A stretch of 21,654 nucleotides of DNA from a virus, in the IMG/VR virus record IMGVR_UViG_3300035182_000073, positions 1 to 21,654 of that record. One strand, 5' to 3'. Positions 1,547-20,810 of the stretch are shown one piece after another (position 1 is the stretch's first letter; each line of letters begins with the position of its first letter). The notes beneath the pieces were generated by a model, which saw only the letters and a list, made by a program, of their open reading frames with translations, was not told where the DNA came from and did not search any database. Position numbers and translations under genes: made by a program.

Positions 1547-3697
1547 TTATTTTGCGTCTTCTTTAGGCATTGCTTTATCTTTATGGAAGTCCAGCAATGC
1601 TTTTGCTGCATGTTCATCAATGTTTTGTTGATGTGCTTGTGCAGCTAATTCCATACTTTGTTGGTGCTCCTGTGCAGCTAAATCCTGAGTCTGTTTATGA
1701 TCAGTACCTGTAGATTTATTTACAAAATCTAAGTCAAGCATGTCAGCATCACTACTCATCTTACGAGCTTGTGCTTGTGCTACACCTGCTTTAGCTAACT
1801 TCAATTGAGCATCAACTTGTCTATCTTGACCCTTAGCCTGTTCATTCATAACCTGTGCTTGTAACATCTGTAGCTGTAATTGCTGCATCTGTAACTGCAT
1901 AGGATCTGGAGCAGGAGGCTGATAATCTTTAAGTTTCTTAGCCAGTTCAGGCATTTTACGAAGCTTAGCAATATCAGACATAATCATCATAGTTACATCC
2001 ATAGGTACACTATTACCTAATGTTTGTAGCATAAACGCCAATTCTTGAGCTTTCTCATTATCTGTTTCTGCAGTACTAATTGTCAAGCGTAAGTCAATAT
2101 TGCCTGCTAAATCATCTCTTTTGACTGGGACAAAGTTATCATTAGTGATCCTAACGACTTCAGTATCAGATAAGAATTCAGCATTCATTGAAATGAATTT
2201 ACGACCTATCTGTACAATACCATCAGCTAGTCTTCTTAAGATGCCTAATTCGCGTTTAGAAGCTGCATCTAGAGCACCTCTAACACCTGTAGCTGTATTT
2301 CCTAAACCTTGACCACCAATACCTGTATTGTAAGCTTTAACACCTGTAATAGATTCAGCTTCATTATTCATATACTGAATCATCATCATAGCTGATTGAG
2401 GTATCTCAGGGTATCTATGCATGAACACTGCTTGTTCAGGATTCATGATATTAGGGTTAAACTGATAATCTTCACCTAGATCAAATTTACGCTTGTTAAC
2501 TACATCTAGAGCATCTTTTCTAATACCTTGTTGAGCATTAGCAGATCTACCCATAAGGTCAATCATACCCCTAGTAATAGCCCCAATGATCGCTTGATTA
2601 TCCTCAATTAGTACACTATCAGGTTCGCCATAAATAGATTTACGTACAGGTAAATATTGAACTACTACGAAAGGTAGCTTCTTATCTGGATATGGGTTCT
2701 CTTCCATACGCACGATAGTGTCACCAATGTAGCATACTAGAATAGAAGTTAATGAACCATCATTGTTAACATCCCAGTATCCCCAATACTCATGCATTAC
2801 TACTTTTTTACGAGTTTTGTCTTTAAACGTAAATAAGTTACCAGCATCTTTATCGTTATAGTCTGGATAAGTACTAGGATCTTCACCAGTAAATTGAACA
2901 TTATCTAGATTTTTATACCGCTTATCTGCTCTTAATACGTCCATAGATACATTGTATCTGTGTATAACAAACTTAGCTTTTGAAATGTCACCTTTACAGG
3001 TAGGATCAATAATTACATTTTCAAACTCACAAATTTCAGCAGTAGGGTGATTCTCAACAGCAACCATCTTTTTAACTAATTTTGTACCTGTCTGGGCTTC
3101 TTGGAATGGGGGAATACCTTGAGCAATCATTTGTTGAGCTTGAGCTGGATCTTGTACAGGAACCAAACCCATTACAGGCTCTTCTACCATCTGTTCAGCT
3201 TCTTCATACTCCCAACCTACTTTAACAACGATAGTACCTTCATCGACACCTGTACGTACATACTCATCAATAAATCTTACTTTATTAATTTTATTATTAA
3301 ATTGATGATTAAGTACTAAAGTATTTTGATCAGCAGCTTTAGTGTCTTCCCATGTAACAGGTTGTGCATCAAATATATTATCAGAACTTAGAAAAGGTTC
3401 TGATAAAGACGCATAACGCCATTCAGCCTGTTTACGTGCGAGCTTAGGCTGTACACTAGATCTATTCTTAGCAAACTTAGTTTTTGGTGTACCAGCTAAT
3501 ACATCTAACCAACCATTTACATTAGTAGTATGTGATGAATGTGTAGGCAAAGCTGCAGTATAGTCATCTTTTAAATTAGATACTTTAGGTGGATTTTTCC
3601 AATTGAGCTTAAAAGTTTCTGTAACACTATTTTCTAGTTGTTCTTCAGAAATTGCATCAAATGAATCATCATCTGCAGAGAGATATTTATCTTTCAT
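1547..3697 (-). CDS. Portal protein
   Basis: At 716 residues this is the size of large portal proteins. As a ring at one capsid vertex it forms the DNA channel and docks the terminase and neck. The central region holds alternating strands and helices typical of the portal clip/stem/wing, including a segment near 345-360 on an entry to the channel domain (L-P-F-V-V-V-Q-Y) often seen in this family. The C-terminal ~150 residues are a long Gln/Met/Ala-rich helix (about 590-700) like the barrel or crown of large portals. It starts on a TAATG overlap with the ketoacyl synthase gene; a GGAG lies further upstream. Neighbours (scaffold next) fit. No frameshift is visible. Confidence 0.88.
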   Translation of the reverse strand: MKDKYLSADDDSFDAISEEQLENSVTETFKLNWKNPPKVSNLKDDYTAALPTHSSHTTNVNGWLDVLAGTPKTKFAKNRSSVQPKLARKQAEWRYASLSEPFLSSDNIFDAQPVTWEDTKAADQNTLVLNHQFNNKINKVRFIDEYVRTGVDEGTIVVKVGWEYEEAEQMVEEPVMGLVPVQDPAQAQQMIAQGIPPFQEAQTGTKLVKKMVAVENHPTAEICEFENVIIDPTCKGDISKAKFVIHRYNVSMDVLRADKRYKNLDNVQFTGEDPSTYPDYNDKDAGNLFTFKDKTRKKVVMHEYWGYWDVNNDGSLTSILVCYIGDTIVRMEENPYPDKKLPFVVVQYLPVRKSIYGEPDSVLIEDNQAIIGAITRGMIDLMGRSANAQQGIRKDALDVVNKRKFDLGEDYQFNPNIMNPEQAVFMHRYPEIPQSAMMMIQYMNNEAESITGVKAYNTGIGGQGLGNTATGVRGALDAASKRELGILRRLADGIVQIGRKFISMNAEFLSDTEVVRITNDNFVPVKRDDLAGNIDLRLTISTAETDNEKAQELAFMLQTLGNSVPMDVTMMIMSDIAKLRKMPELAKKLKDYQPPAPDPMQLQMQQLQLQMLQAQVMNEQAKGQDRQVDAQLKLAKAGVAQAQARKMSSDADMLDLDFVNKSTGTDHKQTQDLAAQEHQQSMELAAQAHQQNIDEHAAKALLDFHKDKAMPKEDAK

Positions 3698-4551
3698 TAA
3701 TTAAGTTTCTCCGTAAAAAAAGATCCATACATTCCACCCATACCTGCACTTAAATGCAATATGCTACTATTTGGATATCTATCTAAACATAGGCATAACT
3801 CTACACCTGTAGAGCTTCCCATAGTGTGTCCTATTTCTTGTTTAAAGCTAAGTGTATTACAACCTGGATACGCTTTATTAATAGCCACTAATTCTACTCT
3901 ATTTGACTCTGTATTGGTATCATGCATCTTAATATAATCTATTGGCAGACCTTTAGTAATAACATTGCTATACCCTTCTTCACATACATCTATTAGAGTA
4001 CTAGCAATAGCGTATTTATTAACTATATTAGATATTTTGCATATACTAGCTTCAGTTTGTTTAGAAGACACATGAAATATACTAGCACCAAAACCAACAT
4101 CAAATGCTTTACCTAAAACACCTACTTGGATAAAAGCTTGTTTCACTAATTCAGCAGTACCATTATCTACGTTAATTATAATAGCATCTGTAAGCTTGCC
4201 AGATTCAAACAGGTATTTAACCCATTCTAAAGTAATGATTAAGGAACTACAAGCAGATCCATCTGTGCTTAACCAATCAGTGGCATTTAGCTGTTTAGCC
4301 CATTTACCTGCTACTATCTGTGCTTGTTGCATAAAAGATACTCTAGCACTTTCTTTTCTAGTAGAGGATAAATATGTATCATCAGTACCTGTCCAAGTAG
4401 TATTACCTGAAGCAAGTAAAGTACCTACTCTATCTCCCGCAGGAGTATACTTAAAATTTGAAACTAACTTATTAACTGTATAAGTTAATGAAGATGCACT
4501 AGTACAAGATTCTAAGAGATCCAAAGTATAAGAATAGGAGTTAAGATACAT
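3697..4551 (-). CDS. Compact beta-ketoacyl synthase (thiolase-fold condensing enzyme)
   Basis: The 284-residue product looks like a shortened FabF/KS-type enzyme, which joins an acyl thioester to a malonyl-type unit carried on ACP. The motifs occur in KS order. The nucleophile Cys101 lies in D-G-S-A-C-S-S. The first His, H210, lies in M-H-D-T-N-T, aligning with the family H-G-T-G-T. Lys237 and the second His, H242, lie in K-Q-E-I-G-H-T-M-G, with the family's five-residue Lys-to-His spacing. A C-terminal glycine loop (G270-G276, A-G-M-G-G-M-Y-G-S) aligns with FabF G-F-G-G-T-N-G. So the catalytic triad is complete although the protein is about 130 residues shorter than FabF (~410). The missing parts appear to be N-terminal and in loops that include dimer and cap regions. 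It overlaps the ACP gene by 11 bases and the portal start by one. A chain-length-factor-like or inactive role is unlikely given the intact triad, but the substrate is unknown. Confidence 0.85.
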   Translation of the reverse strand: MYLNSYSYTLDLLESCTSASSLTYTVNKLVSNFKYTPAGDRVGTLLASGNTTWTGTDDTYLSSTRKESARVSFMQQAQIVAGKWAKQLNATDWLSTDGSACSSLIITLEWVKYLFESGKLTDAIIINVDNGTAELVKQAFIQVGVLGKAFDVGFGASIFHVSSKQTEASICKISNIVNKYAIASTLIDVCEEGYSNVITKGLPIDYIKMHDTNTESNRVELVAINKAYPGCNTLSFKQEIGHTMGSSTGVELCLCLDRYPNSSILHLSAGMGGMYGSFFTEKLN

Positions 4552-4852
4552 TAATACTTACTCCACTATTGTTATATTTATTAATCCAAACAACTAAATC
4601 CATAACTGTTAATTGTACTTTAGGTCCTTCTACATCTGGGAAATAACCAGGCATAGTAGCATCACCAGGCATATTAAAATAATTACCTAACCCAGCTAAA
4701 GTTAATGTAGTGTCTAAACTGTCTAAGTTAATATCTTTTAGTTTAGAATTAACAGAATAATTACTAAAATCTAAATTCAACCCTGTAGATTCATTCTCAA
4801 TAGTTTCTTTTAGTGTATCTAAAAATTCTTGTAAAGAGATTTCTTTATGCAT
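4541..4852 (-). CDS. Acyl carrier protein
   Basis: This 103-residue protein has the pattern of an acyl carrier protein, a small four-helix protein that carries acyl chains on a phosphopantetheine arm. The attachment motif is L-D-S-L-D (43-47), with Ser45 as the modified residue, preceded by a strand/turn resembling the AcpP lead-in. Helix II follows (T48-F59), and a final helix beginning L-T-V-M-D-L (81-86) matches helix IV of AcpP. A ~20-residue Gly/Pro-containing loop (about 60-79) is longer than in E. coli AcpP (78 residues). The gene lies between the GNAT-like and ketoacyl synthase genes, with an AAGG-type ribosome binding site and an 11-base overlap with the latter. No phosphopantetheinyl transferase is visible here, so the host enzyme would have to modify it. 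Confidence 0.85.
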   Translation of the reverse strand: MHKEISLQEFLDTLKETIENESTGLNLDFSNYSVNSKLKDINLDSLDTTLTLAGLGNYFNMPGDATMPGYFPDVEGPKVQLTVMDLVVWINKYNNSGVSINVS

Positions 4853-4857
4853 TGCTA

Positions 4858-5394
4858 CTACCTTCGTATTATAAAATCTACTTTGTTATTATCATCTTTA
4901 TCGAAGTATACCATAATATCAGATGTATCAAGTTCATTTATTGTAGTACCTTCTTGTAACTTAACTATATCAAATGTATCTACAAAACCTTTTCTAGCAT
5001 CTACTACTTTTAAACAATATACATTTATACTTGCTAAAAAGTTTTTGAGCTTCATAAATATATCATGAGCTACTACGTTATCAGATACCCAAATAGTATT
5101 GCATATAAAACAAGGTATTGGTCCATTATAGGTCATAGAACTACTTATATTATAAATAAAAGCAGCGACTAACTCTGATTCTTTATACACAGATAAGATT
5201 TGATACTGGTTACTAAGGATGTATTTTACATACATATCTATATTAATTTTAATAATATCTACAGTAATAGTTGCATTCATTTTATTCATAGCAAGCTTAA
5301 GCTTATCTAGGATATTAGTTATCCCTACAGCACCATAATCTGAAGCAATACCATAAGTAAATGTGTAGTCTTCTTCAACATATTTTTTAAGCAT
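4858..5394 (-). CDS. Uncharacterised protein, possibly GNAT-fold acyltransferase
   Basis: A 178-residue soluble protein without signal peptide or membrane segment. From about 70 to 115 the strand-rich pattern (S-V-Y-K-E-S-E-L-V-A-A-F-I-Y, then a strand and a helix) resembles the central sheet of GNAT N-acyltransferases. The usual acyl-CoA pyrophosphate loop (Q/R-x-x-G-x-G/A) is not evident, so the fold call is weak. The conserved Arg/Trp/Asp residues of LuxI-type acyl-homoserine lactone synthases are not evident either. It starts five bases after an AAGAG motif, directly behind the holin gene, and is followed by the ACP gene after five bases. That position makes an acyl-ACP-using transferase an attractive idea, but it is inference from context. 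Confidence 0.6.
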   Translation of the reverse strand: MLKKYVEEDYTFTYGIASDYGAVGITNILDKLKLAMNKMNATITVDIIKINIDMYVKYILSNQYQILSVYKESELVAAFIYNISSSMTYNGPIPCFICNTIWVSDNVVAHDIFMKLKNFLASINVYCLKVVDARKGFVDTFDIVKLQEGTTINELDTSDIMVYFDKDDNNKVDFIIRR

Positions 5395-5402
5395 AGATAC
5401 TC

Positions 5403-5912
5403 TTATTGTTTAGCTTTTAGTAACAATTCGTTTTTAGCAGCACTACTAGAACTAGAACCATAATAATAAGCTAGTATAGTAGTCCAGCCACCGCCTAAAG
5501 CCCCTAGCATAACTAGTAAAGCATCACCACCTTTCTCTGGCACACCGTACTGTAACATGTAACTAAGAACACCAAAGTAGCCGATTGTAACTACAGCAGC
5601 TAGAAGTTTTGGTGTCCAATCTTTTACGGACATTTCTCGCTCACGAGCAGACTTACGATCATCAGCATCTATACGTGCTAGATCAATACCTAATTCATCT
5701 GCCCTAGCTTTTGCAGCTATTTCTGCTAACTTAATTTTTGTTAAGCTTTCATCACTAAATACATCGCCTTCTTTAGCATTTATTACACTATTAGCTTTAT
5801 CTTCATCACCATCAAAAGCATCAATTAAGGCCTTTGTTGCAATACCTAAAGCAGGAGTACCTAGTAGCCCTACTAAAGTAGGAGCAATCGTCTTTAAAAA
5901 CTCTGGCATCAC
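5403..5912 (-). CDS. Holin of the three-transmembrane type
   Basis: A 169-residue membrane protein. Hydrophobic segments are visible at about 10-30, 102-121 and 130-150. They are separated by a charged helix (about 55-98) rich in Ala, Asp, Arg and Lys. The C-terminus has a Tyr-Tyr-Tyr-Gly-Ser-Ser-Ser-rich tail after the last segment, which matches the 3-TM holin family (Pfam Holin_3TMs type) where an aromatic-Gly-Ser motif follows the third helix. Holins make the inner-membrane lesion that times lysis. The start overlaps the endolysin gene by four bases (ATGA), as in lysis cassettes. Confidence 0.8.
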   Translation of the reverse strand: MMPEFLKTIAPTLVGLLGTPALGIATKALIDAFDGDEDKANSVINAKEGDVFSDESLTKIKLAEIAAKARADELGIDLARIDADDRKSAREREMSVKDWTPKLLAAVVTIGYFGVLSYMLQYGVPEKGGDALLVMLGALGGGWTTILAYYYGSSSSSAAKNELLLKAKQ

Positions 5913-6346
5913 ACTATTCCTTTTACATAGGTTGTTGGCTTACCTGGCGTAAATACTGCTGTGTACAATTCTGCACGTGGTTGTGAACCTGATGGAGCTA
6001 CTTGAACGTGTACCCAAGTAGGTTCACTAATTGCTTTATCATAAGGCAATCCAGTGTGTGAAATAGCAATAGCTAATTCAGACGGTGTCATACCAGGTAC
6101 ATGAATATCGGCAGCAAGTCCTAATTGGTGTGTACTGTTATTAGTACCACCTACTTTAGCATTAACTTCTGGAGAACGATATCCACTTGTTACAAGAATA
6201 GGCTTCTGTAAATAATTACGTAAGGGTTCTAGAAGGGTATTACATAAACGTGTGAGATTCTCGATAACTTCTTCATCAGGAGTATTATCTAATCCTGTAT
6301 TAGTTACTGTTAATTCTTCTAATGTGAAATGTTCTGATAGCTGCAT
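5909..6346 (-). CDS. Endolysin, M15-family L-alanyl-D-glutamate-type peptidase
   Basis: A 145-residue single-domain zinc peptidase that should cut the peptide stem of peptidoglycan at lysis. The family signature is clear: S-G-Y-R-S-P-E-V-N (54-62), then G-G-T-N-N-S-T-H (66-73), G-L-A-A-D-I-H (76-82) and W-V-H-V (111-114). The predicted zinc ligands are His73, Asp80 and His113. The length matches phage M15 endolysins. There is no signal peptide or wall-binding domain, so export would depend on the holin encoded next to it. A GGTGG purine-rich stretch lies six bases before the ATG. Confidence 0.9.
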   Translation of the reverse strand: MQLSEHFTLEELTVTNTGLDNTPDEEVIENLTRLCNTLLEPLRNYLQKPILVTSGYRSPEVNAKVGGTNNSTHQLGLAADIHVPGMTPSELAIAISHTGLPYDKAISEPTWVHVQVAPSGSQPRAELYTAVFTPGKPTTYVKGIV

Positions 6347-7255: not shown

Positions 7256-8602
7256 TTATCCAATATACGCACGGTCTGCTTCTGCTACCGCACCAAAACT
7301 AATACCTTTAGCACGAGTAATAGTACCCTGAACAACTACAGGTTTAGCATGACCTTTGTTACCTGCTACGATTACAATTTGAGCATCAGTACCTGCAGTA
7401 CGACCACCTTGAGTATTACCATCATAGTCAAAGGTAAATGGTAGTGAACTGCTTGTAATCGTACCCTGGATTGGTACACCATCTTTGTCATTAACAACGA
7501 TGGCGGTAGAAGTACCGTAATCACCATTAACAGTATCTAAGAAGTACATAATATAGTAGCCAGTACCACCAGTAGTTAATGGAGTATTGAACGTAGTTGT
7601 ACCAACAGAACTGAACGGATATGTACGAGGTACACCATTGTAGTCTGTAAATTGAATACGGTTAGCATCATTTGCTTGGATATTATTGATAAATACCCCA
7701 GTAGTAGTAACAAGTGTATCACCTACGAAATAGCATAACTCATTGGCAGTTTTACCGATTACTGTACCAGTACCAGAATCAATATCTGTAGTTTGACGTA
7801 ATAGGTATTGTGCTTTCGTGTAAATCTGTTCTAGTGTTGCACCATTACCATCAATAACAACTCTAAACGGATATGAGCCTGATCCAATTGCCTCATTCTG
7901 ATCTGCAGTGTAATAAGTAACAGTAATATTATTATATGGCGCTGCTGTCATTGAACTGTCAGGTGCTTGGATCTTTAAGTCATCTTCATTAGATAACAGT
8001 ACGTTTACCGTATAAGCACCAGTACCTGATTGCCCAGTATCAGCAAGGGTAGATGATTTATACTTTTTAGCATACTCTCTAGCAAATGCTTTGAAATATA
8101 CACGGCTATCAAAGTTACCATTATTGGTATCACCAAATACTTGAATACCTTCATTGACTTCATCTGTAAATGTAAAATTAGCAGGTGCACCACCTTGTAC
8201 TTTTTGATAATACAATTGAGCACCAGTATTTACATCACCTAGCGATACAATACCTACGTGTTGACGGTTTAAGTTACCAGAGCTATCGTATTCAGACCAA
8301 CCACCATCACGTAATGCTTGACGCGTTGTATCATTAGCAGGTTTCCAACCATTATAACTACCGCCATCCGTACCAAATTGGAATTGACCAGATTTGGCAT
8401 CGATTACATACATTGGGAATGGATATTTATTATAAGCACTAGTTTCCCAAAGTTTAATGAACTTTGAGTAGAGTGCCTGCAATGTTACACCATCTTTGTA
8501 AATCAAGTTTCCTGCTTGATTCAGTGTAAAAGTTTTTGCAGTAGTATCAACAGTAATTTCCGTACCTACTACTAACAAGTTACCATCGGTAATTTTTGCC
8601 AT
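7256..8602 (-). CDS. Tail fibre or virion structural protein with shared head domain
   Basis: A 448-residue, strand-rich, Gly/Thr/Asn-rich protein without catalytic motifs. Its N-terminus (about 15-95) shares an arrangement with the smaller downstream product: T-L-N strand, then L-Q-A-L-Y-S-K-F-I-K-L-W helix, then an aromatic/Gly strand block ending in N-G-W. The rest (about 110-448) is rich in beta strands and small residues, as in phage fibre shafts and tips. The context of fibre genes supports a virion role. Its start is preceded by AGGAG some eleven bases away. Confidence 0.65.
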   Translation of the reverse strand: MAKITDGNLLVVGTEITVDTTAKTFTLNQAGNLIYKDGVTLQALYSKFIKLWETSAYNKYPFPMYVIDAKSGQFQFGTDGGSYNGWKPANDTTRQALRDGGWSEYDSSGNLNRQHVGIVSLGDVNTGAQLYYQKVQGGAPANFTFTDEVNEGIQVFGDTNNGNFDSRVYFKAFAREYAKKYKSSTLADTGQSGTGAYTVNVLLSNEDDLKIQAPDSSMTAAPYNNITVTYYTADQNEAIGSGSYPFRVVIDGNGATLEQIYTKAQYLLRQTTDIDSGTGTVIGKTANELCYFVGDTLVTTTGVFINNIQANDANRIQFTDYNGVPRTYPFSSVGTTTFNTPLTTGGTGYYIMYFLDTVNGDYGTSTAIVVNDKDGVPIQGTITSSSLPFTFDYDGNTQGGRTAGTDAQIVIVAGNKGHAKPVVVQGTITRAKGISFGAVAEADRAYIG

Positions 8603-16810: not shown

Positions 16811-17698
16811 TTATCGATTAATTTGAGGTAGAGACACTACTTTACGTTTGTACTTAAAATACATTTCATCATTATTAGCATCATAGATATACTGTTTATA
16901 CACTTTTTTATAATCAGTTTGTTTATCAAAATTAGCATTTTGTCTGTAATTATTTATGCTCCATACTTGGAAAGGTATACTATCAAAGAAGTTAAAAGCA
17001 ACACTTCCAGTACCAAAGAAAGCCCTATTAGAAATTCTATCTAACACATCATGATATTTAAATACAAAATTCATACCCCATAAAAATTCACCTAAAGTTA
17101 GGTTATCAGTATTGACCAAAGTTTTTATAACGCTATCAAATAAACCATACTCATTGGTATTTAATACCTCATTATAAGGCATACGTCTTTGTTGATCAGT
17201 GTAGTTTAACATTTGCACACTACCTACAAGTTGATCCCCAATCTCTCCAGTAATTACTAACTTATTGTCTAAGAATCCTTCAGGCATTTCCCTAATGAAT
17301 TCATAACTTAGAAGTTTAGGGAACATTCTAGCACCTGTTGTTGCTACGTCTTTCTGTATATGATCAGCAAGCATAGGATACTCTTTAACAGATGATAAAG
17401 ACATACCAACACTAAACTCAATTCCAGCAGCAACTAAGGCATAGAATACTAGAGTAGAATCTATACCACCACTCCAGAGTAATACTACATCTTTAAGCGG
17501 ATGTGCTTTAATTTTCTCAATCTGCATATCAATACATTCTTGAAAAGTAGTATTTGCATATGTAGCTTTATCTTCAGAAGTAGGGACAGTATTTACAGTA
17601 TTGACTATACCTTCTAAAGTACCTGTTCTATCGCAGGGTATTACACCAAAAAACCTAAAAAATCTGATAGAGTCTGGTGAATTTTCAAAACCTAACAT
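16811..17698 (-). CDS. Asparagine-synthetase-like PP-loop ATPase without a glutaminase domain
   Basis: A 295-residue protein from the AsnB synthetase/PP-loop superfamily, which adenylates a carboxylate and lets an amine attack it. The PP-loop is L-W-S-G-G-I-D-S (74-81 from the ATG used here). The second family motif is I-T-G-E-I-G-D-Q-L-V-G-S (149-160), matching the AsnB G-E-G-x-D-E-x-x-G block except Q for E. The family's N-terminal glutaminase domain with Cys at position 2 is absent; only ~75 residues precede the PP-loop. I chose the ATG at 17698 over one 33 bases upstream because AGGAA sits seven bases before it and the longer frame would overlap the cupin gene. Possible roles are amide formation or amino-acid ligation of an acyl or sugar substrate. 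A tRNA-thiolation or ExsB-like PP-loop enzyme is less likely, because of the AsnB-type second motif. Confidence 0.75.
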   Translation of the reverse strand: MLGFENSPDSIRFFRFFGVIPCDRTGTLEGIVNTVNTVPTSEDKATYANTTFQECIDMQIEKIKAHPLKDVVLLWSGGIDSTLVFYALVAAGIEFSVGMSLSSVKEYPMLADHIQKDVATTGARMFPKLLSYEFIREMPEGFLDNKLVITGEIGDQLVGSVQMLNYTDQQRRMPYNEVLNTNEYGLFDSVIKTLVNTDNLTLGEFLWGMNFVFKYHDVLDRISNRAFFGTGSVAFNFFDSIPFQVWSINNYRQNANFDKQTDYKKVYKQYIYDANNDEMYFKYKRKVVSLPQINR

Positions 17699-17705
17699 AT
17701 AAATA

Positions 17706-17710
17706 TTCCT
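17706..17710 (-). promoter_or_regulatory. Ribosome binding site that sets the PP-loop gene start
   Basis: AGGAA lies seven bases upstream of the ATG at 17698 and overlaps the end region of the cupin gene. No comparable motif precedes the in-frame ATG at 17731, so the shorter start is preferred. Confidence 0.6.
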
Positions 17711-17711
17711 A

Positions 17712-18317
17712 TTAAACTTCAAACGTACCATTACGCATTGGGTGATTATTTTCCAGTACTGTAGAACTATACACGTGCATAGGTACTACAAGTAAGTAGT
17801 CATCTTCAGTAACAAAATGGTGTGGTGTCATCTTATCAAGTACAAGTACATCACCAGGATTTAGTGTAACTTTTAACTCATCTGACATACCTTGAACGCT
17901 ATACCCACTTCCACCAATAACTCTAACTACTCTAGTAGTTGAATGTATATGATGAGCTTGTTCTTGAGTTCCTTTAGGTAGATATAACAACTGTAATGTA
18001 GGATCCCCATGTCTTACAGGAGGGAATACTTGTTGTGAACTGCAACCATTAATGTAAGGTAAATTAACAATACTCTCATAGCTAGATGTTTTACTTTCAC
18101 ACTGGTATCCTCTAACTAATACAGCTAGAGAATCACTTTTAATCTTAGTACCACCTCTGTGTATACTAGCATTAGTATCATTAATTATCCATAAAGAATC
18201 ACCTAAAGGGATATCTACTTCATGTTCACCTACGTATACAGTATAAGCATATAAATCATATTTATTTGATTGAAGTATTGTTGTATCACCCGCAGGTACT
18301 TTTATAATATTAAACAT
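17712..18317 (-). CDS. Cupin-fold protein
   Basis: A 201-residue protein. Its second half (about 107-182) has a cupin barrel: G-T-Q-E-Q-A-H-H-I-H (116-125) gives the H-x-H metal-ligand pair (H123 and H125), a Gly turn follows at G135-G138, and N-P-G-D-V (153-157) with H166/H167 forms cupin motif 2. The usual Glu of motif 1 is not obvious. The first half (about 20-75) has a similar strand spacing and may be a degenerate second cupin. Cupins serve as isomerases, oxygenases or sugar epimerases, or as binding proteins, so the substrate cannot be read. It lies 12 bases after the 95-residue gene and very near the PP-loop gene, which suggests shared function. Confidence 0.75.
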   Translation of the reverse strand: MFNIIKVPAGDTTILQSNKYDLYAYTVYVGEHEVDIPLGDSLWIINDTNASIHRGGTKIKSDSLAVLVRGYQCESKTSSYESIVNLPYINGCSSQQVFPPVRHGDPTLQLLYLPKGTQEQAHHIHSTTRVVRVIGGSGYSVQGMSDELKVTLNPGDVLVLDKMTPHHFVTEDDYLLVVPMHVYSSTVLENNHPMRNGTFEV

Positions 18318-18633: not shown

Positions 18634-20217
18634 CTACACAATATACGAGCTATAAGCTCCACCAGTCAACTCAGGCTCATCTTCAAACATATCACCTGTC
18701 TTTGCGTTTACAGTCTCTTCTGAGGGCTTCCAAGGGGTTAGTTTAGCTAACATAGACACTGTGTCAATAGCATCATCGTGCTTACTTTTAAACCCTTTAG
18801 GGGAAGCATAACGCAATTCTTGTAGTAATTCTAGCACTAAAGGATGTTCACGCATATCTTCTGGTAACCATATCTTTTTAGTTTTAAACCAAGGGAGTAC
18901 TACGTTGAATCTTTCCATCTTATTAGTAGCAGGTCTAATGCCTGCTTTACCACTGTTATTCTCACTAGCAAGAGTAAAGTAAACATTCCTAGCAACCATC
19001 TGATCGTAGATCCAAGAGACAAAACCTCCTTGTTGACCAGATACTTCAACACCTACTTGCTGAGGTTTATACATCTGGACCAGTCTAAATAGATCATCAA
19101 CGTTCTTATCCATTAACTGTCTTTTACATATACCATCTACCAGTAACCAATCACCATTATTAGTATATGCCCATACACTTATAACACTATAGTCACTAGC
19201 TTTACTTTCACTAGTAGCAAAGTCAGTAGTAATATAGAAGTTATACCTTTCTTTATTCTGCTGTACTTTCTTAGAATCATACCACACTAAGTCATGATCA
19301 AAGACTAACCTATCATCATCACTAATAATTCTTAGCATCAACTCTTGCATGAAGCTATCTACTTTTCCTGCAAGGACTGCCTTATCATATTGATCTTTAA
19401 CATACTGATATGTAAATCGATCTTCCCATGCTCCTCTAAACTCTCCTGGAGCACACGGGAAAGTGTTGCATACTGGAAATACGTTAACGTACCACGCACC
19501 AGATTCAGCAGCTTTATATAAAGGGTCGTTACTGTTGAACGGAGTACCGTTCCAAATAATTTTACGTCTTGTAGGATGTAGTGCATAATCAATAGCCTTA
19601 TATACAGTATCCTCGATACTGGCTGTAATTGTAGGGCTTCTAGCGCCTTCGTCAGAAACCAAGTCATCTAATAAAGCAAAGTTAGGTCTCTTACCCATTT
19701 CCTTACTACCACGAACACCAGTTAATGCACCGTACCCTTTGATAATAAGCTTCTTGCCATCTTTATTAGTAAACTCCCATCGAATATCAGTAAACTTAGC
19801 TTCAGGGACATATTGCTGTAAAAACTCACTATTCTCCCATCTAAACTCTAAGTTTTTCCTCATATTCTTTACACCATTCTCTATACTATCACTTACATAT
19901 AGAGCTAGATCTACTTTACCGAATCCATATAATTCACCATAAGTAGCCAAGTATAAAAACATATACTCACCAAATACAGTAGTCTTACCTGAACCACGGA
20001 ATAGCATATTAAGTGTATTAGCTTTACCACCAGCAATCTGATCCAGCATCTTATAATGGATAATAGGAGTTAAGTTCTCTTCACCATCAGTACCATTAAC
20101 CAACTTAATAAAGTTAACAAACTCTAATGAGAACTCACTAGGGACGTAATTAACATCATTACCGTAATCAACTTGATTAAGCCAAGCTTCTACAGATTGC
20201 TTTATCGGTTTATCCAT
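18634..20217 (-). CDS. terL: Terminase large subunit (packaging ATPase/nuclease)
   Basis: A 527-residue motor protein that packages phage DNA and cuts it. The ATPase half has Walker A F-R-G-S-G-K-T-T (73-80), Walker B F-A-L-L-D-D-L (180-186) and a coupling motif W-N-G-T-P-F (222-227). The nuclease half has a first Asp in T-T-D-F-A-T (D332), an acidic residue in V-G-V-E-V-S-G (E391), and the C-terminal Asp cluster K-H-D-D-A-I-D (479-485). Size and order are complete. It starts on a TAATG overlap with the ferritin gene, so its translation is likely coupled to that gene; the best AAGGA lies 12 bases upstream. Confidence 0.95.
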   Translation of the reverse strand: MDKPIKQSVEAWLNQVDYGNDVNYVPSEFSLEFVNFIKLVNGTDGEENLTPIIHYKMLDQIAGGKANTLNMLFRGSGKTTVFGEYMFLYLATYGELYGFGKVDLALYVSDSIENGVKNMRKNLEFRWENSEFLQQYVPEAKFTDIRWEFTNKDGKKLIIKGYGALTGVRGSKEMGKRPNFALLDDLVSDEGARSPTITASIEDTVYKAIDYALHPTRRKIIWNGTPFNSNDPLYKAAESGAWYVNVFPVCNTFPCAPGEFRGAWEDRFTYQYVKDQYDKAVLAGKVDSFMQELMLRIISDDDRLVFDHDLVWYDSKKVQQNKERYNFYITTDFATSESKASDYSVISVWAYTNNGDWLLVDGICKRQLMDKNVDDLFRLVQMYKPQQVGVEVSGQQGGFVSWIYDQMVARNVYFTLASENNSGKAGIRPATNKMERFNVVLPWFKTKKIWLPEDMREHPLVLELLQELRYASPKGFKSKHDDAIDTVSMLAKLTPWKPSEETVNAKTGDMFEDEPELTGGAYSSYIV

Positions 20218-20810
20218 TAATCATCAGTATCCTTAGAATCATTATCACCATCATCGTCATCATCATCATCATCAGTATCAGCGATCTTTCTATATGCATC
20301 TAACATATACTCATCTAATTCAATTCGTAAAGAACCTTTGAACCAATCAGGAGTAGCACTATCCGAGAGTTTCATTTGATTAATTTTACCTATTAATCCA
20401 ATAAATAAACTCTCTTCTTCTCTTTGTTCAGACAAGAACCAGTTAATTAGTTTAGAACTTACATAATCATCAGCCTCATTAGCAGCTTCTTTAATAGCTA
20501 CAATAAGTTTAGTAGTATTCTGCTCTAAAGCTAATGAAGCATATACAGTATCTTCTAGGTTTTCGATAGTACCAATATCAAACTTATTCAAAGTAAAAGC
20601 TTCAGGCATATACCCAAGATCCAACAAATAACTGATGAATCTATCTCTATGATTCATCTCACCTTTAGCCTGTATAGTGAACAATTTAGCAGCACCATCA
20701 TACCCATTAAATGAACACCAGTTAGCTAGTTCAATGTAAATTAAGTTATTACTATTTTCTACACTAATCTGTCTTTGTATTAACTTTAATACTGTGTTAT
20801 CTATCTTCAT
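20217..20810 (-). CDS. Ferritin with intact ferroxidase centre and poly-Asp tail
   Basis: A 197-residue ferritin of the bacterial FtnA type, which oxidises Fe(II) and stores iron in a 24-subunit cage. Aligning by eye with E. coli FtnA (165 residues) gives the ferroxidase ligands E18, Y25, E51, H54, E96, Q129 and E132. The fingerprints are A-N-W-C-S (29-33), G-Y-D-G-A-A-K-L-F (36-44), G-E-M-N-H (50-54) and S-E-Q-R-E-E-E (127-133). The one difference at this centre is G50 where FtnA has E49 (third iron site). A loose acidic tail (D180 to D197, 13 of 18 residues Asp) follows the cage helices. The gene sits between the small-terminase region and terL, with an AGGA about nine bases upstream and a one-base overlap with terL. 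Rubrerythrin or bacterioferritin are less likely: there is no rubredoxin Cys motif and the layout is FtnA-like. Confidence 0.9.
   Translation of the reverse strand: MKIDNTVLKLIQRQISVENSNNLIYIELANWCSFNGYDGAAKLFTIQAKGEMNHRDRFISYLLDLGYMPEAFTLNKFDIGTIENLEDTVYASLALEQNTTKLIVAIKEAANEADDYVSSKLINWFLSEQREEESLFIGLIGKINQMKLSDSATPDWFKGSLRIELDEYMLDAYRKIADTDDDDDDDDGDNDSKDTDD
20250..20273 (-). repeat. GAT triplet microsatellite encoding eight Asp
   Basis: Eight consecutive Asp codons (seven GAT and one GAC, seen as ATC/GTC units on the plus strand) encode D180-D187 of the ferritin. Such a run may vary in copy number by slippage. Confidence 0.8.

Follow-up and report, generated by a model that had tools for sequence, protein, structure and literature searches.

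A predicted compact ketosynthase and dedicated acyl carrier protein encoded together among the late genes of uncultured bacterial viruses

The DNA stretch analysed here (the window, 21,654 nt, positions 1 to 21,654 of the IMG/VR record IMGVR_UViG_3300035182_000073) is a phage contig with every large gene on the minus strand. Two of its genes, which overlap by 11 nt within positions 3697-4852, code for a predicted ketosynthase (KS) and a predicted acyl carrier protein (ACP), and the KS stop overlaps the start of the portal gene by 1 nt. Such a pair had been proposed at this place in the first-pass annotation, and the open reading frames (ORFs) do lie as placed there, on the minus strand.

Taken by itself, the window KS is divergent in sequence, its Pfam match being to the C-terminal domain only (Ketoacyl-synt_C, PF02801, E=1.1e-4, over the cut-off). 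It matched phrog_35856 with E=1.4e-23, a profile built from 42 viral KS found FabF structures in the PDB with E=3e-37, and KS profiles also matched small biosynthetic KS (AmcF) and KS-alpha. In the alignment with E. coli FabF, residues C101, H210, K237 and H242 (codons 4249-4251, 3922-3924, 3841-3843 and 3826-3828) correspond to C163, H303, K335 and H340, where C163 is C164 when counted from Met1, and the GMGG loop at residues 270-273 corresponds to G399/G401, so that the Cys-His-His triad, the lysine and the C-terminal glycine loop read from the sequence at the outset are all present. Chain-length factor (CLF) has Gln, Asp, Lys and Arg at the same four positions. Segments 1-35, 64-88, 212-228 and 360-390 of FabF have no counterpart in the window KS, which is thus shorter because these four segments are missing and not at the expense of the active site. 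Its length is 284 aa and that of the KS from MW202545, a 57-kb environmental phage genome with an annotated KS and an unannotated ACP that served as the starting query, is 366 aa, compared to about 410 aa for full-length FabF. Neither protein reaches the fabF equivalog cut-off of 493.75 bits, the scores being 20.1 for the window KS and 98.6 for the MW202545 KS.

In the AlphaFold2 model of the window KS (predicted local distance difference test, pLDDT, 81.9; predicted template modelling score, pTM, 0.86), beta and alpha elements alternate in the manner of the thiolase fold, and the best matches of the model to solved structures in Foldseek were FabB, polyketide synthase (PKS) ketosynthases, KS-alpha and FabF with a probability of 1.00; the best structural match overall was the UniProt entry A0A6J7X0R1, labelled 'FabB' (TM score 0.78). 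Judging from alignment and model together, the protein belongs to the FabF-type (KAS I/II) ketosynthase superfamily with a predicted active site that is complete, and by its profile scores it is not a housekeeping FabF equivalog. Both genes are under purifying selection, since the ratios of nonsynonymous to synonymous substitution rates between the window and the 85%-identical locus L003 are 0.15 for KS and 0.17 for ACP, with 0.08 for the portal gene.

The window ACP is divergent as well: as a single sequence it gave no Pfam PP-binding match, and its TIGR00517 match (E=0.038) was below the cut-off. Its Ser45 (codon 4718-4720), proposed earlier as the attachment site, sits in an LDSLD motif in which Asp44-Ser45 is invariant in 31 of the 31 aligned viral ACPs. 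A simple motif scan found DSL, DSM, DSF or DSI in 158 of 160 loci, whereas only 2.3% of control ORFs, taken from these loci and comparable in length, had DS[LMFI] at the right position. When the 31-member viral ACP profile was searched against the PDB, the top matches were all ACPs (best E=3e-7), and its comparison with cellular ACPs gave an hhalign probability of 93.5%. The structural match is suggestive only: the model has a pLDDT of 83.8 and its best Foldseek matches are ACPs, with a probability of 0.90 but a weak E-value of 0.3. Profile and motif evidence thus identifies the 103-aa protein as a dedicated ACP with a predicted attachment serine. The N-terminus of this protein (4778-4852, minus strand) resembles a 29-aa antirepressor peptide of Bacillus phage phi106 (PDB 9sf2_B, E=0.0018), which is probably a chance likeness of short helices.

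Table 1 Coordinates of the module, its neighbours in the window and the diiron-type proteins found beside it in other viral loci
Feature	Contig	Position	Strand	Description	Basis
KS gene	window	3697-4551	-	284 aa, predicted compact FabF-type ketosynthase	Pfam Ketoacyl-synt_C, phrog_35856, AlphaFold2 and Foldseek, residue mapping to FabF
ACP gene	window	4541-4852	-	103 aa, predicted 4'-phosphopantetheine site Ser45	viral ACP profile against PDB, invariant D44-S45, Foldseek (weak E-values)
178-aa protein	window	4858-5394	-	co-directional, 5 nt upstream of ACP	sequence
Portal protein of N4-like phage	window	1547-3697	-	directly downstream of KS	phrog_1216, E=3.6e-235
Holin-like protein, lysis genes	window	5403-5912	-	upstream of module	first-pass assignment and sequence features
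M15-type peptidase-like endolysin	window	5909-6346	-		sequence features judged by eye
Diiron-type protein	L076	6455-7243	+	about 235-313 aa, EExRH and DExRH
Diiron-type protein	L077	7030-7737	+	about 235-313 aa, EExRH and DExRH
Diiron-type protein	L078	257-1198	+	about 235-313 aa, EExRH and DExRH
Diiron-type protein	L079	5561-6367	+	about 235-313 aa, EExRH and DExRH
Diiron-type protein	L080	6503-7312	+	directly beside ACP-KS
Diiron-type protein	L082	8885-9694	+	directly beside ACP-KS
Diiron-type protein	L095	6724-7548	+	directly beside ACP-KS

The pair is by no means confined to one phage. Successive scans of viral contigs yielded 66 relatives, later at least 525, and 343 with another pattern set, these sets overlapping. 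Among the loci fetched there were 162 distinct viral KS, 153 of them full-length, and 160 loci could be assessed for ACP. The four Cys/His/Lys/His residues are kept in all 153 distinct full-length proteins, and an ACP gene lies no more than one gene upstream of KS in 160 of the 160 assessable loci. Two of the outcomes named at the outset as grounds for refutation, a model without the thiolase fold and homologues without the triad, were thus not observed. A match to the ACP hidden Markov model stands directly upstream of KS in 157 of them, with only three matches elsewhere in 1.9 Mb. The exceptions are L078 and L085, in which one gene separates ACP from KS, and L004, in which ACP is intact and KS frameshifted. 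ACP-KS coupling is therefore near-universal among the viral loci, and no fewer than three kinds of phage carry the module. In the L004 allele (3621-4452) a short deletion shifts the frame past the active-site Cys, and the gene is either a real pseudogene or the product of an assembly error.

Candidate cultured carriers of KS did not hold up. A search of the phage collection matched only MW202545 and unannotated records, among them records of Listeria, Enterococcus and Staphylococcus phages. Two of the unannotated records, OR848561 (L242) and OR846615 (L243), were placed in the tree, and both carry FabF falling among cellular KS, which makes host contamination likely. Over the first 50 kb of its 68-kb genome, the cultured schitovirus Alteromonas phage R22Y (PP212876) encodes an ACP and no KS; its related ACP gene is followed by a 167-aa gene (L245:23774-24554, plus strand), an arrangement that resembles L088 minus KS.

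In both trees built, a branch with 100/100 support separates the viral KS, without exception, from the 16-18 cellular KS, including FabF, FabB, NodE, KS-alpha and CLF; the second tree omits an ORF of Pseudomonas phage Y4 which is not a KS and stood among the cellular rows of the first. On this sequence comparison the viral KS form a virus-specific branch of FabF-type ketosynthases, a term that holds relative to the sampled cellular KS only, because that sampling is thin. No close relationship of viral KS to a host gene, as of a recently host-derived auxiliary gene, was seen in trees with these 16-18 cellular sequences. A search of 84,980 species genomes with both KS queries, which reaches close relatives only, returned no relatives. 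A topology in which the window KS branches off first, beside the cellular side, was not rejected in the approximately unbiased test (p 0.158), so the exact place of this KS is unsure.

The window phage is N4-like (Schitoviridae-type), its portal protein sharing 48-53% identity with counterparts in N4-like Klebsiella, Salmonella, Pseudomonas and Vibrio phages, and its relative L003 has a length of 73.9 kb, usual for this group. The downstream order is lysis genes, the 178-aa gene, ACP, KS and portal, the last four being spaced or overlapping by a few nucleotides, which bears out the late-operon position first proposed, beside portal and lysis genes. The pair does lie between the holin and portal genes but adjoins only the latter, as the 178-aa gene separates the holin gene from ACP. 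This 178-aa gene is kept in the close relatives L001 and L003, and its product, for which Pfam, PHROGs and PDB profile searches gave no family, structure or phage match, is possibly a third partner of the pair. Elsewhere in the window there are a ferritin-like protein gene adjoining the large terminase gene (20217-20810, minus strand; Pfam Ferritin, E=1.2e-21) and, in the late region, a PP-loop ATPase-like gene (16811-18317, minus strand) with an LLWSGGIDST motif and weak QueC/NAD synthase matches, which adjoins a cupin gene (Cupin_2, E=2.8e-7).

Four genomic contexts were distinguished among the viral loci. In most, a P22-gp10-like stabilisation protein gene and a small gene are followed by ACP, KS and a gene of a family here called F4, beyond which lie genes for a lytic transglycosylase and for large proteins of an internal or tape-measure-like type. 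In Caulobacter phage GB2A the same flanking genes occur without ACP, KS and F4, so these three behave as a cassette. In most loci the gene that follows KS codes for an F4 protein (143-211 aa, about 124 relatives, e.g. L054:11119-11577, plus strand); these proteins share the conserved motifs GNT and RALNADT and have no match in any library searched (Pfam, PHROGs, PDB, hhalign). A reading of F4, the window 178-aa protein, the 163-aa protein of L088 and the 167-aa protein of R22Y as GNAT/T7-gp13-like acyltransferases was not supported by comparison with Pfam, PHROGs and the PDB or by hhalign. The second, N4-like context comprises the window group, L085 and L086, where the module is also just upstream of the portal gene, and L088, where it follows the capsid genes; in L085 a DUF2269 membrane protein (7360-7803, plus strand; E=1.5e-11) is encoded between ACP and KS, and the same is found in L086. 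In the third (L076-L082, L095 and L096) the pair stands beside a gene whose product has conserved Glu residues and Glu/Asp-x-x-His motifs (Table 1) and shows weak similarity to FA_desaturase_2, rubrerythrin, AurF and AcsF. To judge by these motifs and matches, it is probably a diiron oxygenase or desaturase, i.e. a chain-modifying enzyme. The fourth has a helicase-like gene upstream of the pair and small genes downstream. A late location adjoining virion and lysis genes is seen in N4-like, P22-gp10-type and other phages alike.

Each of 24 contigs of 43-74 kb contains exactly one KS (Ketoacyl-synt_C match), and with no second KS in them a CLF/PKS reading was rejected. Searches of these contigs for a phosphopantetheinyl transferase (PF01648), a short-chain dehydrogenase/reductase (PF13561) and FabA/Z (PF07977) found none, while control searches were positive; the virus therefore most likely contributes just the condensing enzyme and the carrier, with activation, malonyl groups and reduction coming from the host. 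In rhizobia, the specialised ACP and KS known as NodF and NodE build one special acyl chain via the host fatty-acid synthase (FAS) and feed NodA, and adjacent ACP-KS gene pairs of this type were seen on rhizobial plasmids. It appears fairly probable that the viral ACP and KS likewise work as a type II (dissociated) condensing module relying on host AcpS, FabD and FAS enzymes, and the data suggest that many uncultured bacterial viruses make a special acyl group late, using the rest of the host machinery.

According to this model, late in infection host AcpS would put phosphopantetheine on Ser45 and malonyl groups would come from host FabD. An acyl chain would be taken onto Cys101 of the phage KS, malonyl-ACP would be decarboxylated via the two histidines, and both units would be condensed on the phage ACP by the phage KS. 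Host FabG, FabZ and FabI would then reduce the product, so that one special acyl chain would accumulate on the phage ACP, as with NodF-NodE in rhizobia, and in some phages the neighbouring diiron enzyme would probably desaturate or hydroxylate it. As the ACP is dedicated, the product would stay apart from the host pool, and the late location suggests a use in the particle, ejection or lysis. In the most speculative step, the acyl group might be passed to a target of the late phase, for example a virion protein, whether for ejection or not, or the envelope when the cell lyses. The bolder proposal is one we put forward as a doubtful possibility: an ancient virus-owned ACP-KS module, retained among the late genes of several phage groups that are unrelated to one another, would build a dedicated acyl chain for a virion or ejection protein or a lysis component, the phages thus lipidating or acylating their own machinery with their own type II synthase.

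Several observations weigh against a condensing module of this kind. A search of the phage collection gave no cultured phage with the ACP-KS pair, and no acyltransferase was recognised near it, the 143-211-aa, 163-aa and 178-aa neighbours matching nothing. The contigs may be incomplete, in which case the absence of other FAS genes is no proof, and with the FabF segments missing from the window KS its substrate pocket and dimer may differ. The trimmed substrate regions, together with the ACP-only phage R22Y, in which a KS-independent role of ACP is possible, would also fit a non-synthase use, with KS trapping host acyl-ACP or ACP serving as a structural or assembly partner (cf. MukB, complex I); this is very improbable, given that the four catalytic residues are invariant in 153/153 proteins and that His/His/Lys would be superfluous in a trap or scaffold. 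Contamination with host DNA or misassembly of the contig, to which we give almost no credence even though bacterial FabF contaminates some 'phage' records, is contradicted by synteny, with the same genes beside the portal gene in four related contigs, by the hundreds of viral loci carrying the pair and by a KS lineage not found in the search for close relatives among the 84,980 cellular species genomes.

The pair might instead be a general lipid auxiliary one, raising or shifting host fatty-acid synthesis (chain length, unsaturation, membrane fluidity) in aid of replication or lysis, with no special acceptor. KS/ACP chemistry and the need for host FAS, no own reductases having been detected, would agree with this, and the lone ACPs of schitovirus R22Y and of roseobacter prophages have been interpreted so (PMC11705849, PMC8224337); we nevertheless find it unlikely, since host FabF and ACP are already abundant, the viral KS is a deep virus-specific lineage in the late and not the early or middle region, and the ACP, being dedicated, suggests that its acyl pool is a separate one. 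A small signal or toxin of acyl or polyketide type as the product of the pair, e.g. a lysis-timing or superinfection signal, is improbable: bacterial KS-ACP pairs do yield such products and the KS profiles match AmcF and KS-alpha, but no tailoring or release gene was recognised alongside, except for the diiron gene in one group, and there is no CLF partner, with one KS per contig.

If the type II condensing module is real, late infection would see phages maintain an acyl pool of their own, which points to some acyl product or an acylated virion part. The viral KS are the shortest ketosynthases found in this analysis and thus useful for defining a minimal condensing fold, and the pair provides phrog_35856 and, probably, phrog_28189, which now carry the label 'unknown function', with a concrete function that is open to test.

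Phage fatty-acid genes have so far been reported as scattered auxiliary metabolic genes, whereas here a conserved two-gene unit, predicted to be catalytic, is found in hundreds of environmental viral contigs. Lone phage ACPs have been published (PMC11705849, PMC5463345, PMC8224337), and fabF is among the listed viral auxiliary genes (PMC10653327, PMC12783922, PMC5704599). ACP and FabF in the order fabG-acpP-fabF were reported from putative prophages of roseobacters (PMC8224337); bacteria have their housekeeping operon in this same order, and the reported genes may thus be host DNA, whereas the viral module consists of a compact virus-specific KS and its ACP in late genes. The first-pass view that this is not a described system agrees with the open-access literature, where no description of a late ACP-KS module was found (most subscription journals and all preprints lay outside the search), but single members had already been labelled automatically: the MW202545 KS as '3-oxoacyl-ACP synthase', with the neighbouring ACP called hypothetical, and A0A6J7X0R1 as 'FabB'. 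The MW202545 KS and phrog_35856 are of the same viral KS family by sequence. With only single members annotated and the module undescribed in that literature, the chemistry is known, yet the viral lineage and setting are new.

Like E. coli FabF/AcpP, the viral pair has the Cys-His-Lys-His residues, the predicted thiolase fold and the DSL motif of ACP, but the viral KS are far under the fabF equivalog cut-off and the window KS lacks several FabF segments. With the minimal type II PKS it shares a dissociated KS and ACP, and the KS model resembles actinorhodin KS/CLF; in contrast, no CLF accompanies the viral KS, with one KS in each of the 24 large contigs, and the viral KS keep the residues lost in CLF. 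Cyanophage lipid desaturases (Roitman et al. 2018, cited in PMC8224337) are likewise phage genes altering acyl chains, but reportedly act on membrane lipids; the viral module instead combines ACP and KS, joined in one group by a soluble diiron protein. As for NodF-NodE, the viral KS fall outside the NodE branch, most having 280-376 aa versus about 402 for NodE, and the viral loci are late phage genes with no NodA-like acyltransferase recognised, but both systems have a dedicated ACP gene followed by an adjacent KS gene without a full FAS set of their own.

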